From NCBI RefSeq assembly GCF_040256745.1, contig NZ_CP138335.1:1922001-1986000 (forward strand): a stretch of DNA of 64,000 bases, in the 5' to 3' direction. Source of the stretch: Scrofimicrobium sp. R131. Lineage in GTDB: Bacteria; Actinomycetota; Actinomycetes; Actinomycetales; Actinomycetaceae. The stretch's first letter is position 1. Each line of letters starts with the position of its first letter. The position numbers were made by a program, and so were the translations under genes. Of the stretch, positions 1,973 to 18,701 are shown one piece after another. The notes below the pieces were generated by a model, which was not told the origin of the DNA, searched no databases, and was given only the letters and a program-made list of their open reading frames with translations.

Positions 1973-2141
1973 AGGTCTCGATTTACCTTAAAAGCACCCC
2001 TGACCTGCGGTTATGTGATTCTGTAGCGGTAGTCATCGGTCAAAACCACCCTTCCCAAACCAGGAGCCGATGCTCAACGCTAGGCCTGCCGAGGCATGAC
2101 GCATCCTGGCTAGCGGGTTCAGTAGCTTTGCCTGCGGTCGT

Positions 2142-3143
2142 TCACTGCTCGCCTGATTTGTGGGCTACGATGAACTCGTTCAACTCTGCGACGCGGGCGT
2201 CTCTTCCCCGCTTCATTGCATCGAGATCCTTTTGATGCGCTTTGACGAAACTGTCTGCAATTTGCCACTCGTAGTCATAGAGCTCATCAAACCAACCCGA
2301 ACTCTCACGACACTTGGCATCAAAGACAGCAACCCTAATCTGATCAGCCGATGCCGGCTCTCCACTTCCCCAGTTCCACGCCTCAACCAAAGACTCAGGT
2401 GGACGCGCGCCCGGGATCCAAGGTGAAGCTGGCAGATCGACAATCCCCAACGGCGCCATACACTCGCGCCACCTGGCGGCAGCTTCATCCAACTGCGGAA
2501 CACCGCTATACCTGAACAACGCCTGATACCCCTTTTGCAGGTCCCGTTCGACCTGAGTAGGCTCAGGGACCTTATGGCGTTCGACCACGCTCTGGCCGTA
2601 GCACTCGTCCCACTTCTCCTGGTAACCTGGCACATCCTCATCCGGCTGGACCGGGTTGATCATTCGCGGATCCGGCGCCAGTTGGTAGCCATACTTGGCC
2701 GCGATCTCTTCGTCGAACAGCTGCCTTCCGTTACCTGTCGGCTGTTCAGTCTCGGGTGCCGGCCGGGTGTTGTCAATGTGGACCCGATAGTCAAACCCCG
2801 CGTCCTTCATACAGTCACGAACTTCCCAGAGGTCATGTTCAATTTGATAGTCAAACGTGCGCAAATCGAAATACGGATCGGTTGGAAGAATCCACTTCTT
2901 TCGATCCTTCACAACTTCTGACACCGCAGTCAGAGATCTGGACGCATTCGCACCAGCCTCTTTTGTCGGCTCACTAACCGGCTCACTCACCGGCTCCGAC
3001 TGACCCGACTGTTCCACCCCCGCAGACTCCGGCCCAGCCACACTAGTACACCCACCAACAGTCACCACAGCAAGCACCAAACCAGCCAACTGCAACCCCA
3101 CGCGATACCGCCAAGGACGGCTATTTGAACACCGCTGCCGCAT
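2142..3143 (-). CDS. Putative lipoprotein of unknown function
   Basis: Predicted exported lipoprotein of 333 aa. The start at 3143 is fixed by a strong GAGGAG 4-5 nt upstream. The N-terminus is basic, then hydrophobic, then has a lipobox 'VTVGGC' giving lipidated Cys32. A low-complexity linker with 'SEPVSEPVSEPT' leads into a hydrophilic, Cys-containing domain with several 'W..C' and 'W.EC' patterns and a charged helical C-terminus. I do not recognise the family. A TATAAA at 3205-3210 on the minus strand could be its -10 box. It lies in the AT-richer left segment between a two-component system and a secreted peptidoglycan-binding protein, which suggests an envelope-related accessory role (inference). 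Confidence 0.75.
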   Translation of the reverse strand: MRQRCSNSRPWRYRVGLQLAGLVLAVVTVGGCTSVAGPESAGVEQSGQSEPVSEPVSEPTKEAGANASRSLTAVSEVVKDRKKWILPTDPYFDLRTFDYQIEHDLWEVRDCMKDAGFDYRVHIDNTRPAPETEQPTGNGRQLFDEEIAAKYGYQLAPDPRMINPVQPDEDVPGYQEKWDECYGQSVVERHKVPEPTQVERDLQKGYQALFRYSGVPQLDEAAARWRECMAPLGIVDLPASPWIPGARPPESLVEAWNWGSGEPASADQIRVAVFDAKCRESSGWFDELYDYEWQIADSFVKAHQKDLDAMKRGRDARVAELNEFIVAHKSGEQ

Positions 3144-3266
3144 AATTCTCCTCACCGTTTTAATGGCCGCTTGGCGATCAAAAGCGCTGTCGATCTCGTC
3201 GCCCTTTATAATGCAATTGTCCAGCTGATTAGTTTGCACACATAAAGACGGCTCTTTAAACGGCTA

Positions 3267-3716
3267 TTACTTCCACTGGGAGATGCTGTCGTAATAGTCT
3301 CCCCACCACATCACACTACCGGTTAATTTTCCATACACTCCGTCAACAGCCAGTCCTGCATGCGCATGTTGAACCTTGATAATGGCGGATTGCGTAGCAG
3401 CGCCGTAATATCCATCAGCGTCTAGTTCATGAAAGCCCTCGCCTTTAATGAGCCCATAATATTGGAGCATAAAGGTGCCATGATTATAATTTTGCACGTC
3501 ATAATCCAGCCAACAATCAACGGAGCCAGCATATGCAGGCGCAGCTGTACTCCGTCCACTTTGCAATAGTTTCCCGATAGCGGAATCACACTCGTATGTC
3601 GCTCTTGGCTGAATCGCCCCAGAAGCAGTCGATTCCGAGTCTGCTGCCAGTGCCGGGGTGACGATTGCGCCTGACAAAAACAGGCCAACTGCCGCAGTTA
3701 TGATTGACCTTTTCAT
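3267..3716 (-). CDS. Small secreted peptidoglycan-binding-domain protein
   Basis: 149-aa secreted protein. The signal peptide is clear: 'MKRSIITAAVGLFLSG' then 'TPALA' as likely cleavage site. The C-terminal half fits the PG_binding_1 fold: 'LDADGYYGAATQSAI', 'VQHAHAGLAVDGVYG'. No catalytic domain is visible, so it may only bind the wall or be a small regulator/inhibitor. The ATG at 3716 is preferred because AGGTGG lies 8 nt upstream; a GTG at 3728 would prepend four residues before the signal peptide. Base composition is clearly AT-richer than the rest of the window, suggesting acquisition by transfer. Confidence 0.75.
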   Translation of the reverse strand: MKRSIITAAVGLFLSGAIVTPALAADSESTASGAIQPRATYECDSAIGKLLQSGRSTAAPAYAGSVDCWLDYDVQNYNHGTFMLQYYGLIKGEGFHELDADGYYGAATQSAIIKVQHAHAGLAVDGVYGKLTGSVMWWGDYYDSISQWK

Positions 3717-3826
3717 TCCTCTAACCACCTGTTCGCATCGTTGCGTTGGTCCCGTGGAGGTTTCACCTGCCCGATTGACGGTGACGGGATGCTCTCATCG
3801 TGACACGGCGGGGGCGGTAACTGCCA

Positions 3827-3862
3827 TATACTTTTGTATACTTTTGACCGACCGAATGTCAC
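3827..3862 (-). promoter_or_regulatory. Candidate promoter with 10-bp tandem direct repeat
   Basis: On the minus strand GTGACA (3857-3862), a 16-nt spacer and TATACA (3835-3840) form a plausible promoter for the secreted peptidoglycan-binding protein, giving a leader of about 110 nt. A perfect 10-bp direct repeat TATACTTTTG x2 (plus-strand 3827-3846) overlaps the -10 region, a spacing of one helical turn that could hold a dimeric regulator. No other gene lies in the 276-bp gap 3717-3992. Confidence 0.4.
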
Positions 3863-3992
3863 AGATTGGTCTTTGAAGGCCCTGACCTGGCCCTTCGTCA
3901 GCCGGGCTGGATTCAGTATTCCCAAGTTCCGTTACCGGTTGTCCGCATGTTGGAACACTGTCCAGGTTCGGATCGGACAAAAGGGGAATCCG

Positions 3993-13808: not shown

Positions 13809-16379
13809 ATGCCAGCAGTCGACCTCCCGTCGGCGCGTTCCCCCCTCGTGAAAATTACCCTGCGTGGCATTCGCTCACAGTTTGGCCGATTCCTGATGAC
13901 GCTGCTGGCCGTCTCGTTGGGAACCGCTTTCCTCAGCGGTGTGCTTGGGCTGCGCTCCGCCCTCGACGGGGTGGCCGAGTCAACCCTGGGCGGGGTGGCT
14001 GTGTACGACGGGTACCTGCTGGGGCCAGAGGAGACGACTCCCGGTGGGACCAGCATTTACGGCAGCGTTGACGCCAGCGAGGTCGACCGCATTCGCGAGA
14101 TTACCGGGGTGGAGGACCCGCTGGCCCTGTGGACGGGAACCGGACTGCTGTACGACGCCGCGGGCAACCTGCTCACCACCGGGGGCGCTCCCGTCCTGAT
14201 CACCCCCACCATGGCGGGCAGTTTGGGGCCAACCTGGGTGGAGGGCGTCGCCCCGCAGCGGGCCGGGCAAATCGCCGTCGAGGAGTCCGCTGCCAACCAG
14301 CATCAGCTGCAGGTGGGCGACCGGCTCGAGCTGGCCGTCGGCGGTCAGATCCTGCCCCAAGAGGTCACCGGCATCTACAGTTACGACCATCCGATGCTCG
14401 GGATGGTCAGCCTTTACGTCGATCCCGACACCGCCGACCAGCTGTTAGGGGAGGGCGGGCAGGCCCCCATGGTGGTGTTCAACCTGGCCCCGGGGGCGGA
14501 TCCAACCCAGGTGCTGGACCGGGTGGCCCAGCCGGATCTGACGGTGCTGGACAACGCGCAGTACCGCGCCTACCTGCAGGAACAGGCCGACACGGCCCTG
14601 AGCTTCCTGACCACTTTCCTGCTGATCTTCATCGGGATCGCCCTGTTCGTCAGCACCTTCATCATCTCTAACACCTTCCAGATGTCCGTCCGGGCTCGGC
14701 AGGGTGAGTTCGCCCTGCTGCGCGCCATTGGCACCTCTCGGCCGCAGGTGTTCCTGGTGGTGGCCGCCCAGGCGGTGGTGGTCGGGCTGCTCGGAGGCGG
14801 ACTGGGGGTGCTGCTGGGCCGGGGACTGACCTGGGCGGCAGAGCGAGCCCTGGCCGGGATTGGCATGAGTCTGCCCGGCGGGATACCCCTCACCGCCTCC
14901 ATGGTCGGTTGGAGCCTGCTGGTGGGACTGGTGGTGACGGTGATTTCCGCACTCTTGCCCGCCCTGGAGGCATCCCGTACCTCCCCGCTGGAGGCGCTCC
15001 GCTCCTCGGCCGGTGCCAACCAGCGTGCCCTCTGGCCGCGAACCGTGCTCGGGGCGATGGCTTTGGCCGGGGGCCTCGCCCTCGTCCACCTGGGGGTGAC
15101 CCGACAGGTGGCCGGGCCGGGCGTCAGCTTCGGGGTGGGGGCTGCCCTCCTGATCCTCGGCATCCTCGCGGTCTCACCCGCGCTGTCCCGTCCGGCCGCC
15201 CAGCTGCTAGCCAGCCCCATCCGGCTCGTCTCCCCCACCCAGGGCCGCCTCGCCGTGAAGAACCTGTGGCGTAACCCGCGCCGAACCTCCACCACGGCGG
15301 GGGCCCTGATCATTGGCGTCACCCTGGTGAGTGCCGGGGCCGTGCTGGCCACGACCGTGAAGGACTCCATTGCCGGCCTGGCTGACGATCAGGTCCTCTC
15401 CAACCTGGTGGTGCAAAGCGCCGACCCGTTCTCACCAATCCCACCGCAGGCGCAGGAACTGATCGAGCAGGTGAAGGGGGTCGAGTCGGTCCACGGTGAC
15501 GTCAGCACCGGGCAGGTCAGTTTCGAAAACGCCGAGGGGGAGTACGCCATCCAGAGCGCCACCTTCTACGGCCCGGGCTACCTGGGACGGGACGTGCAGA
15601 TTCCCCTGTCGGAAGGCAGCGCGGACGGCCTGTCCGACGGGGAGTTCCTGGCGCTGAGCTCCTGGGCTCGCGAGCAGGGGTTCGAGGTCGGCGACGAGGT
15701 CACCTTCCGGGATGGAGATCAGACTCAGGAGCACCGCCTGGGGGGCCTGATGGACTTCAACGTGGTCGGGTCCACCCTGGTGTTCGATGCGAAGTACTCG
15801 CAGTTGGCCGCGGGCGGGCAGTTCCCCGTCACCAAGCCGGCCGCCCTCTTCGTCTGGACGGAGCCGGGGGCCGACGTGCAGCAGGTCAAGGCTGCGATCC
15901 AGCAGCAGGTGCGGCCTCTGCGTACCCTGTCGGTCGGCACGGCGGCAGACTTCTCAAACCAGGCGGCGCAGGCCGTCGACCAGGTGATGGCGGTGCTCTA
16001 CGCACTGCTGGGACTGTCGGTTGTGGTTGCCGCCGTCGGTATTGTCAACACGATGAGCCTGTCGGTAGCGGAACGGACCCGAGAGTTCGGGCTGCTGCGA
16101 GCGGTCGGGATGGGCCGCGGCGGGGTGGCGGCCCTGGTCATCATCGAATCGACCCTCACCTCGGTGTACGCGGCGGTCCTGGGGGCAGCGACCGGAGTGG
16201 GACTCGGGGCGGCATTGCAGCAATACCTGCAGGACTCTGGCCTGTCGCGGCTGACCGTCCCCTGGGGGCAACTGGGACTGTTCGTGCTGGCGGCTGCAGT
16301 GTTGGGCGTGCTGGCGGCCATCGTGCCGGCCTGGCGGGCAGCGCGCATCCCCGTGCTGGTGGCGATCGCGGAGGATTAG
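13809..16379 (+). CDS. FtsX/MacB-type ABC transporter permease (two FtsX domains)
   Basis: 856-aa permease of the exporter/mechanotransmission class. A transmembrane anchor near 22-45 is followed by a periplasmic-type MacB domain, a three-helix FtsX domain at about 260-390, then an internal second anchor (about 480-505), a second MacB domain and a second FtsX domain (about 735-850) with the typical 'VNTMSLSVAERTREFGLLRAVGM' region. Such proteins work with a LolD/MacB-like ATPase and move lipids, peptides or lipoproteins. No ATPase gene is adjacent, which is unusual. GAGGGGAG precedes the ATG. The downstream flank is the repeat array. Confidence 0.85.
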   Translation: MPAVDLPSARSPLVKITLRGIRSQFGRFLMTLLAVSLGTAFLSGVLGLRSALDGVAESTLGGVAVYDGYLLGPEETTPGGTSIYGSVDASEVDRIREITGVEDPLALWTGTGLLYDAAGNLLTTGGAPVLITPTMAGSLGPTWVEGVAPQRAGQIAVEESAANQHQLQVGDRLELAVGGQILPQEVTGIYSYDHPMLGMVSLYVDPDTADQLLGEGGQAPMVVFNLAPGADPTQVLDRVAQPDLTVLDNAQYRAYLQEQADTALSFLTTFLLIFIGIALFVSTFIISNTFQMSVRARQGEFALLRAIGTSRPQVFLVVAAQAVVVGLLGGGLGVLLGRGLTWAAERALAGIGMSLPGGIPLTASMVGWSLLVGLVVTVISALLPALEASRTSPLEALRSSAGANQRALWPRTVLGAMALAGGLALVHLGVTRQVAGPGVSFGVGAALLILGILAVSPALSRPAAQLLASPIRLVSPTQGRLAVKNLWRNPRRTSTTAGALIIGVTLVSAGAVLATTVKDSIAGLADDQVLSNLVVQSADPFSPIPPQAQELIEQVKGVESVHGDVSTGQVSFENAEGEYAIQSATFYGPGYLGRDVQIPLSEGSADGLSDGEFLALSSWAREQGFEVGDEVTFRDGDQTQEHRLGGLMDFNVVGSTLVFDAKYSQLAAGGQFPVTKPAALFVWTEPGADVQQVKAAIQQQVRPLRTLSVGTAADFSNQAAQAVDQVMAVLYALLGLSVVVAAVGIVNTMSLSVAERTREFGLLRAVGMGRGGVAALVIIESTLTSVYAAVLGAATGVGLGAALQQYLQDSGLSRLTVPWGQLGLFVLAAAVLGVLAAIVPAWRAARIPVLVAIAED

Positions 16380-16429
16380 GCGGGCTGGGGTGGCGCGGCC
16401 GGGACTGATGGGTCCAGCGCCTGGCGGAC

Positions 16430-16473
16430 GCCCGAACCTACCCCGAACTTGCCCCGAACCTGCTCCGAACACT
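16430..16473. repeat. 11-bp tandem repeat, four imperfect copies
   Basis: Four consecutive 11-mers of the form CCCCGAACCTG at 16430, 16441, 16452 and 16463 (the last degenerate). They directly precede and merge into the larger repeat array. Confidence 0.75.
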
Positions 16474-16891
16474 GGCAAACATGCCCAAACACTGGCAAAA
16501 CCCAGGTCAACCGGCCCAAATCAGCCCAAAACCCCAACGTTTGCCACCAGTTGGATACGTTTGCCAACACTAGGGCCCGGCAAACCGGCCCGAACCAGCC
16601 AAACGCTGGCAAAACCCAGGTCTACCAGCCAAACACTGGCAAACATGCCCAAACACTGGCAAAACCCGGGTCTACCAGCCCGAATCAGCCCAAAACCCCA
16701 ACGTTTGCCACCAATTGGATACGTTTGCCAACGCCAGAACCTGGCAAACATGCCCAAACGCTGGCAAAACCCAGGCCCACCGGCCCGAATCAGCCCAAAA
16801 CCCCAACGTTTGCCACCAGTTGGATACGTTTGCCAACACCAGGGACCGGCAAACATGCCCAAACCAGCCAAACCCTGGCAAACCCCAGGTC
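16474..16891. repeat. Phased GGCAAA/TTTGCC repeat array between convergent genes
   Basis: A noncoding array separates the permease and metG, which converge. A 47-bp core occurs at 16522-16568, 16686-16732 and 16791-16837 with one substitution in total. Sixteen GGCAAA/TTTGCC hexamers occur, with first bases (counting the G of GTTTGCC) at 16474, 16494, 16539, 16559, 16579, 16608, 16638, 16658, 16703, 16723, 16743, 16763, 16808, 16828, 16848 and 16877, so gaps are mostly 20, otherwise 29-30 or 45. Inverted pairs GTTTGCC...GGCAAAC of 27 bp sit at 16559, 16723 and 16828. The array ends about 10 bp from the metG stop. Function unknown; long frames here are by-products of the 105-bp period. Confidence 0.9.
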
Positions 16892-16901
16892 TACCAGGCG
16901 C

Positions 16902-18701
16902 TCAGGCGCCGAAGCGGGCCAGCTCCTCCTCGATGATTGCCTCGTCCAGCTTGACGAACGCCGGCTTCGGCTTGGCCACCGGGGTTCCCACCACCACGGC
17001 CCGCCGCTCCCAGGTTCGAGCCGACCGGTAGTCACCGGTAATGATCGGGTAGCGCCGAGCGGACCCGTCGTCGTTGGTCACATCCAGGTCTTCCACCCAG
17101 TCGATTCTCGGCATCGGGGCCACGTCCCCGCGACCGCCCATCACCTCGTCCACCGCATTGGCCGAATGCGGCAGGAACGGTGCCATCATTGTGTTCAGGT
17201 CGCTGACCGCCTGGGCCAAAACCCACAGCACGGTCCGCAGGCGGGGCTGCTGCTCTTCCGACTTCAGTTTGAAAGGTTCGGTCTCGGTCACGTACCGGTT
17301 GGCTTCGCCCACCAGGCGCATGATGGCCGCCAGCGCCGCCTTCTGGTGGTGGGTCCGGATCAGGTCCCCCACCTCGCCAAAACCTGCGGCCAGCTGATCC
17401 AGCAGGTGCTCGTCGCGGGGGTCGAGGGCGTCGGGTTCGGGAATCTCCCCGAACCGCTTGTGGATCATCGAGGCGGTCCGGTTGACCAGGTTGCCCCAGC
17501 CGGCGACCAGCTCGTTGTTGGTCCGGCGGACAAACTCTTCCCAGGTGAAGTCGGCGTCCGCAGTTTCGGGGCCGGCCGCGCTGATGTAGTAGCGCAGGGC
17601 GTCGGGCTGGTAGCGTGCCAGCAGGTCGCGGACGTAAATTACGATCCCGCGCGAGGAAGCGAACTTCCGCCCCTCCATCGTCAGGAACTCGGATGAGACC
17701 ACTTCGGTGGGCAGGTTCAGTTCGCCGTATTCCCCCGGCTTGCCGCCGCGGGTGCCCTTGCCGTTGTAGGCCAGCAGTTCGGCCGGCCAAATCTGGGAGT
17801 GGAACACGATGTTGTCCTTACCCATGAAGTAGTAGGACAGGGCTTCGGGGTCATTCCACCACTTGCGCCAGGCGTCGGGATCGCCGGTGCGGCGCGCCCA
17901 CTCGATCGAGGCGGACAGGTAGCCGATCACCGCGTCGAACCAGACGTAGAGGCGTTTGCCCGGCTGATCCTCCCACCCGGGCACGGGGATCCCCCAGTCG
18001 ATGTCGCGCGTCATCGCACGGGGGCGGATCTCTTCCAGGAAGTTCTGGGAGAAGCGGATGACGTTGGGACGCCAATCCCCCTCTTTGGTTTCGAGCCATT
18101 CGGTCAGCACTTCGGCCAGGGCCGGCAGGTCCAGGAAGTAGTGGGTGGTCTCCACGAACTCGGGCACTTCGTTGTCGATCCGAGAATGCGGGTTCAGCAG
18201 GTCGGTCGGGTCCAGCTGGTTCCCACAGTTGTCGCACTGGTCGCCGCGGGCACCCTCGTAGCCGCAGATGGGACAGGTCCCCTCAATGTAGCGGTCGGGC
18301 AGGGTCCGCCCCGTGCTGGGGGAGATCGCCGACAGGGTGGTCTGCTCAATCAGGTACCCGTTGTCCCGCACCACCTTGAACATTTCCTGCGCCACCCGGT
18401 AGTGGTTGCCGGTGGTGGTCCTGGTGAACAGGTCGTACGACAGGCCCAGCTTGGCCAGGTCCTCCACGATCAGCTCGTTGTTCCGGTCCGCCAGCTCCCG
18501 AGCCGTGACCCCCTCCTGATCGGCCGCGACCAGGATCGGGGTGCCGTGCTCGTCAGTCCCGGACACCATCAGCACGTCGTGGCCCGCCATGCGCATGTAG
18601 CGGGAGAAAACATCTGAGGGAACGCCGAACCCGGCGATGTGTCCAATGTGTCGCGGACCGTTGGCGTAGGGCCAGGCAACTGCGGAAAGAATTGTGCTCA
18701 T
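16902..18701 (-). CDS. metG: Methionyl-tRNA synthetase
   Basis: 599-aa class I synthetase charging tRNA-Met in the cytoplasm. HIGH motif '[11 protein letters not shown]' near residue 17, zinc-knuckle cysteines '[17 protein letters not shown]' (about 145-161), and the KMSKS-loop equivalent 'RKFASSRGI' (about 350), a variant normal for this clade. The anticodon-binding helical domain follows, without the C-terminal tRNA-binding (EMAP) domain of longer forms. A -10 box TAGGCT (18708-18713, minus) ends 6 nt before the ATG, with TTAGCG 17 nt further upstream; no Shine-Dalgarno, so probably leaderless. Divergent from pncA with overlapping promoters. Confidence 0.95.

Follow-up and report, generated by a model that had tools for sequence, protein, structure and literature searches.

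Dispersed, helically phased GGCAAA/TTTGCC arrays in intergenic DNA of Scrofimicrobium sp. R131

REP/BIME elements (BIME-2 among them) and REPINs are described as species-specific, dispersed and extragenic, with units in alternating orientation and with hits by insertion sequences (IS) (PMC2817692, PMC1525189). Insertion sequences are known to target REPs (PMC1525189), gyrase and IHF are among the proteins that bind BIMEs (PMC2817692, PMC1525189), and BIME-2 elements are cut by gyrase (PMC6379681). Strong gyrase sites span ~100–130 bp, with phased AT/GC flanks around a ~36–40-bp center, and lie beside transcription ends. The Escherichia coli motif covers ~130 bp, with two 10.75-bp periodic GC flanks and a central 36 bp (PMC6379681), and in Mycobacterium tuberculosis more gyrase is bound between convergent genes and past the points where transcription ends (PMC5433769). 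Sites for Noc and SlmA are under-represented around the terminus (PMC4726725; PMC4117426). Phased A-tract DNA of prokaryotes, with A-tracts at the helical period, is described mainly as a genome-wide signal (PMC3431218, PMC3940949).

We analyzed a 64-kb stretch of the Scrofimicrobium sp. R131 chromosome (hereafter the window; 1922001–1986000 of a single 2,221,980-bp contig), in which 16 hexamers of one kind, in both orientations over ~410 bp, had been predicted to form an array between convergent permease and metG genes. Our recount gave 16 GGCAAA/TTTGCC hexamers (10 GGCAAA and 6 TTTGCC) within 16474–16882 of the window, and both neighbors are as described. The rest of the window holds 37 further hexamers, so that ~0.24 would be expected per 418 bp. 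A check for genome-wide recurrence, which the original prediction had proposed, finds the pattern at 18 further intergenic loci of the same chromosome. The best explanation, on sequence grounds, is a lineage-specific family of intergenic double-stranded DNA elements that would be BIME-like in kind. Like REP/BIME elements, the arrays are dispersed extragenic repeats in alternating orientation, with inverted site pairs at 19 intergenic loci. They differ in copy number (19 loci, against often >100 copies for REP/BIME), in having arms that are direct pairs of a non-palindromic heptamer with no covarying palindrome, in their rigid 20/40/105-bp helical spacing, and in the lack of a RAYT-type Y1 transposase.

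Anatomy and spacing of the arrays

Start-to-start hexamer spacings in the window array are 20, 46, 20, 19, 29, 30, 20, 46, 20, 19, 20, 46, 20, 19, and 29 bp; taken between the heptamers GTTTGCC/GGCAAAC instead, they give the 45 and "20 - 20" of the original prediction. The three cores that it singled out (from 16534, 16698, and 16803) do have a one-base difference across CCAACGTTTGCC...GTTTGCCAAC. In the general unit layout, GGCAAA stands at 0 and +20 and TTTGCC at +66 and +86, and the next unit follows from +105 (10 × 10.5). Unit 3 of the window array starts 105 bp past the start of unit 2; owing to the partial stretch at 16579–16613, the interval between units 1 and 2 is 164 bp and not 105. 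Within the left arm, the middle CAAAC, 10 bp from each GGCAAA, is conserved too.

The metG stop codon lies ~20 bp from the last hexamer of the array. The window had been described as compact, with a notable gap at this position. For gene junctions called by a simple codon-score gene caller, the gap at the array's convergent junction is 522 bp, against −20 to +18 bp at the other six convergent junctions of the window; by length alone the gap is not unique, since the window has other long gaps (one divergent of 543 bp and two same-strand of 308 and 2,020 bp). The same caller places no gene over ~2 kb at 1973–3992 of the window, which is possibly foreign or decayed DNA.

A search with the window array returned 17 matches in its own genome, namely the array itself and 16 at 15 other loci; a two-site pattern added the loci at 150, 806, and 2070 kb, for 19 intergenic loci in total (Table 1). 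Two or three units are present at 16 loci, one at two loci, and half a unit at 2070 kb. A sequence profile of the repeat unit, built from 31 units, yielded no convincing extra locus in this genome among the 150 of 1743 candidates scored, so weak copies could be missed. Weak profile matches outside the 19 loci lie at 584 kb (E 0.007) and 1760 kb (E 0.008), neither of them within the array-free gap described below; the stretch at 583950–584250 (profile E 0.007) includes TTTGCC twice and GGCAAA once, perhaps as the remnant of an array. An exact lone site pair occurs inside that gap, at 944,688, and scattered one-mismatch pairs also occur. Read directly, and with no profile match there, the pair at 944,688 was counted as chance and not as an array.

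The spacing of the sites is fixed while the sequence between them diverges. Among 35 units from 18 loci, 34 have a 40-bp spacer and the remaining one a 41-bp spacer, as scored by a unit finder that admitted spacers of 37–43 bp only, allowed ≤5 mismatches over the 24 hexamer positions, and favored 40 bp at equal mismatch; the 35 units exclude partial extra units present at several loci. Intervals between neighboring units (n = 17) are 105 bp in 15 cases, with one of 106 bp and one, in the window array, of 164 bp. Between loci, spacers are on average 0.59 identical and hexamers 0.95, and spacer identity within loci runs from 0.23 to 0.93 (34 units). At 150 and 1715 kb, the same spacing is kept by units whose spacer identity within the locus falls to 0.23–0.40. 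Constancy of spacer length while the sequence diverges suggests that spacing may be under selection; phase and spacing are also in part inherited, since the loci are all homologous.

Table 1. Features of the window array and its neighbors (window coordinates), and positions of the array loci on the chromosome (kb). Orientation + denotes an A/C-rich top strand.
Feature	Position	Strand or orientation	Remarks
Whole window array	16474..16882	+ (A/C-rich top strand)	Three full units and two partial stretches
Unit 1	16474..16565	+	GGCAAA 16474, 16494; TTTGCC 16540, 16560; 40-bp spacer
Partial stretch	16579..16613	+	GGCAAA 16579, 16608
Unit 2	16638..16729	+	GGCAAA 16638, 16658; TTTGCC 16704, 16724; 40-bp spacer
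Unit 3	16743..16834	+	GGCAAA 16743, 16763; TTTGCC 16809, 16829; 40-bp spacer
Partial stretch	16848..16882	+	GGCAAA 16848, 16877; adjoins metG stop codon
ABC-type (FtsX/MacB-like) permease gene	13809..16379	+	Convergent neighbor; best NCBIfam matches below cut-offs
metG, methionine-tRNA ligase	16902..18701	-	Convergent neighbor; above TIGR00398 cut-off
Array loci oriented + (kb)	27.9, 1553, 1557, 1623, 1678, 1785, 1817, 1862, 1871, 1886, 1938, 2070, 2143	+	1938 is the window array; 2070 is a left arm only
Array loci oriented - (kb)	150.7, 231.7, 306.8, 600.1, 806.4, 1715	-	

Helical phase, predicted curvature and proposed protein docking

The helical phasing claimed for the window array is real and extends beyond the 20-bp pairs. 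Over the 105-bp unit, AA/TT steps have a peak period of 10.5 bp, which carries 28.5% of the spectral power, with 17.7% in the second harmonic. When the hexamers are masked, AA/TT power is still highest at 10.5 bp (0.107), barely above 8.1 bp (0.084), and for A+T content periods other than 10.5 bp are stronger. Power at 10–11 bp per array has z values of 6.3–15.3 and a best period of 10.3–10.5 bp at all 18 loci measured, and at each of them 0 of 300 dinucleotide shuffles reach the power of the array. A wedge model predicts a net bend of 7–14 degrees per turn, against 2–4 in shuffles. Across 29 stretches of the same genome, the best 197-bp window scanned outside arrays reached 1.36, and arrays reach up to 4.2. 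Recurrence of AA/TT every ~10.5 bp predicts curved DNA, and on this modeling the arrays are probably curved; A-tracts are phased at the helical repeat, as in intrinsically bent DNA, at 18 of 18 loci measured. The arrays share this trait with the phased A-tract DNA of prokaryotes and differ from that mainly genome-wide signal in forming a discrete family, with sequence-specific sites, in GC-rich DNA.

Fixed spacing, diverging sequence, base-specific sites, and the 10.5-bp phase together point to double-stranded DNA that is bound or wrapped by protein. We infer from them that the arrays bind a protein, that bending and spacing are the selected features, and that the arrays have a function. The reading we favor, in which we place about equal belief and doubt, is that the arrays are docking and wrapping platforms for a putative DNA-bending architectural protein beside operon ends. 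Phased CAAAC/GTTTG tracts in a rigid row would curve the DNA, and TGGCAAAC-type sites would be presented on one DNA face. Candidates for the docking protein are nucleoid-associated proteins and topoisomerases, gyrase among them. Bound next to the end of an operon, such a protein would establish or relieve local topology and help to keep neighboring transcription units apart. The hairpins that precede nine of 15 arrays, the replichore-linked orientation, and the gap near the terminus, all described below, also speak for this reading. Against it, finding no array in any of the five same-genus species is unexpected if the arrays serve a basic function of the chromosome. If the reading is true, it is a compact case of a bacterium making chromosome-architecture sites of its own within a single lineage, with DNA shape (10.5-bp phased bends) and base-specific sites both readable from sequence, and the array would be a ready-made bait for the putative protein. 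A regulator sink and a transcription block, which the original prediction had also put forward, are likewise conceivable.

As a special case of docking, the arrays may be strong DNA gyrase sites, the phased bends of which would be wrapped around the GyrA C-terminal domains at places where positive supercoils accumulate from transcription that converges or ends. The architecture of phased AT/GC flanks around a central region is indeed present, with phased arms ~40 bp apart, and 134-bp windows centered on the spacer have a mean phased power of 1.54 (0.72–2.55, 35 units), above the best coarse window near the phage Mu gyrase site (1.07). That yardstick is loose: the annotated Mu cut site itself has a phased power of only 0.34, which makes Mu a poor measure of gyrase-site likeness. 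We consider the gyrase reading unlikely. Against it, the GGC before AAA is near-invariant, which is more than a bend signal needs, and gyrase is universal and the arrays are not. The M. tuberculosis study also places gyrase at the terminus region, where arrays are missing (PMC5433769). Unlike the strong gyrase sites described, the arrays conserve base-specific TGGCAAAC sites, form tandem 105-bp units, and are restricted to one lineage.

Gene context and arm pairing

No credible gene is interrupted by an array, and doubtful long ORFs cross some arrays. By protein-coding neighbors, seven loci are convergent, nine are same-strand, and two (231 and 1623 kb) are divergent, with 2143 kb not classed. 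When tRNA genes are counted and IS copies ignored, the loci at 150 and 1715 kb are convergent, and 1623 kb is same-strand but not sense. The share of convergent loci, 7 of 19, compares with 7 of 51 junctions in the window (p 0.01). The G/T-rich strand is the sense strand at eight of the nine same-strand loci defined by protein-coding neighbors (p 0.02), and at six of eight when tRNA genes are counted and IS copies ignored.

The first of these sense-strand counts would fit an RNA element, in which hairpins in tandem would terminate or stabilize mRNAs at their 3′ ends; the second weakens it. The left and right arms are imperfect inverted repeats of each other, and folding of the window array is better than that of shuffles on the − strand (z −6.9) and on the + strand (z −4.0). 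Five loci (1938, 1886, 1553, 1678, and 2070 kb) have no hairpin or a weak one between gene and array, which again would suit this reading. Covariation was assessed at variable columns with 2000 permutations of arms among units, comparing arm with arm and not palindromes within an arm. Own arms form 287 Watson–Crick pairs, against a permuted-arm mean of 302, and 457 against 461 with G-U pairs added (G/T strand); they pair no better than permuted arms, and the REP/BIME trait of a palindrome kept by complementary changes is not seen. G-U-compatible differences on the G/T strand are in slight excess (170 against 158.6 in permutations), and those on the other strand likewise exceed permutations (24 against 15.4), which shows that the excess does not depend on the strand. 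The loop length is rigid, and Rfam gave 0 matches up to E 1 in window 15500–17500. Because the arms pair without covariation, the hairpin is not what is kept. We therefore rejected a conserved RNA hairpin, the many G-U-compatible − strand differences being explained by composition, and regard an RNA element of any such kind as very improbable.

Another hairpin comes first at many loci. At 15 loci a gene runs toward the G/T-rich side of the array, and nine of these have a strong hairpin of their own between stop codon and array (−29.1 to −37.6 kcal/mol, given without a shuffle comparison), which fits the earlier view that the array is not a simple terminator. An irregular hairpin of −28.0 kcal/mol lies between gene and array at 1715 kb. 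On the opposite side of the array, a clear hairpin is present at four of eight loci examined (1886, 27, 1678, and 2143 kb).

Chromosome-scale distribution and spread

The arrays are unevenly distributed along the chromosome. The dnaA gene lies at 74.8 kb and its antipode at 1.185 Mb; GC skew, sampled in ten 10-kb stretches, stays positive as far as 1.11 Mb, is −0.002 at 1.15 Mb, and is negative from 1.19 Mb, although local skew is not clean, the sample at 150 kb being negative despite its place in the right replichore. Array orientation is + at 13 of 14 left-replichore loci (the exception is 1715 kb) and − at five of five on the right. Orientation thus follows the replichore at 18 of 19 loci (two-sided p 8e-5 in a test chosen after the map was seen and assuming independence, which does not hold for 1553 and 1557 kb). 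All seven loci that are convergent by protein-coding neighbors obey this rule; with tRNA genes counted and IS copies ignored, 1715 kb is the exception among convergent loci. Because genes tend to run with replication, replichore and sense-gene orientation are not fully separable. The largest array-free gap, 747 kb from 806 to 1553 kb, has its center at 1.180 Mb, near the terminus. Under random placement, a gap this long arises in 1.2% of cases and one also so centered in 0.05% (2.3% and 0.09% for 17 points), again in a test chosen with the map in view.

This exclusion from the terminus is shared with Noc and SlmA sites, which are under-represented there (PMC4726725). Each of those sites is one short palindrome (of 14 bp in the case of Noc) recognized by a ParB or TetR protein, whereas the arrays are long and multi-site and have no known FtsZ link. 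The genome has a single ParB_N gene, at 81 kb near dnaA, and a Noc-like ParB paralogue was rejected on this count. Conceivably, curved multi-site arrays bound by a putative protein label two thirds of the chromosome, on the side of the origin, in replichore orientation and leave the terminus third unmarked. Such marking would resemble Noc and SlmA in pattern, be unrelated to both and recent in this lineage, and might serve nucleoid occlusion, domain organization, or segregation. We hold it to be decidedly unlikely.

The chromosome carries three copies of a 1385-bp IS element encoding a 396-aa transposase that scores above the IS1249 cut-off. Two of these IS1249-family copies lie inside GTTTGCC-type sites of the arrays at 150 and 1715 kb, with 8-bp duplications and in the same orientation relative to the array; the third is outside arrays, at 234974–236358. 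The chance of two of three copies falling in arrays is ~1e-5 (arrays being 0.17% of the genome), rising to 1e-3 if insertion is possible in intergenic DNA alone (taken as 10%). Such insertions would suit a BIME- or MITE-like repeat that was dispersed by transposition or recombination, without a cell function and with its phase a by-product of sequence. Restriction to one species among those searched, local homogenization of units within loci (spacer identity up to 0.93), and the near-identical arrays at 1553 and 1557 kb (0.95), which flank an ABC-transporter pair, favor the same reading. That spacing is unchanged at spacer identities of 0.23–0.40, even within a locus (150 and 1715 kb), argues against it, as does the lack of a target duplication at array edges, examined by eye. 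The Y1 transposase of the REP-moving RAYT type (PF01797) is absent from six of six genus genomes, own included, in a search whose control was positive in 5 of 14 control genomes; a REPIN/RAYT system was rejected on this ground. We find a neutral repeat doubtful. Phage or plasmid origin was likewise rejected, the window array having no match in the plasmid or phage collection.

The two-gene ABC-transporter pair at 1553.4–1557.3 kb (named by eye) has atypical codon usage and lies between smc and ndk; units of the arrays on its two sides are 95% identical in the spacer. Arrays may act as recombination points for foreign DNA. By eye, many arrays show a sharp local skew switch at their left edge, with a G/T-rich top strand in the flank and an A/C-rich one inside.

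Conservation in sister species, which the original prediction had looked to as a sign of function, was not found. Among 213 genomes of the bacterial family, the four-site pattern is present in one, its own, and the other 212 (five of the same genus included) gave no match. The profile, run with strict filters and with 19 candidates scored per genome where listed, likewise matched only its own among the 213, and BLAST only its own among 39. In the five same-genus species, in which metG is 77–83% identical, the 600–900 bp downstream of metG contain no array. Absence from close relatives, one half of what the original prediction had named as counting against it, is therefore what we observe; either the arrays emerged or expanded in this lineage, or other lineages have lost them. 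A literature search within an open-access library found no paper that describes the array family in its title or the opening of its abstract.

Wider collections, from which records near the own genome may be left out, gave 0 matches to the core pattern among genome contigs, 0 to the four-site pattern among viral contigs, and one stretch with the four-site pattern among 84,980 species genomes. That stretch, in an Acidobacteria MAG, is a simple GGCAAAA/TTTTGCC hairpin with no profile match, and was set aside as unrelated. The left-arm pattern found three viral stretches with weak partial profile matches (E 0.0005, 0.0023, and 0.0055 in a 51-kb search), which we read as short direct repeats. Two viral contigs have three direct GTTTGCCAAA repeats shortly past a tRNA-like stretch, perhaps integrase sites, unrelated to the arrays. 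The generic triple CAAAC-N5-CAAAC-N5-CAAA is present in 34 of 396 genomes of the order, own included, and 0 of 9 such loci tested match the profile. Many of the triple matches listed from other genomes are single 10-bp phased CATCAAAC-like repeats, which are perhaps operators of DeoR-type regulators.
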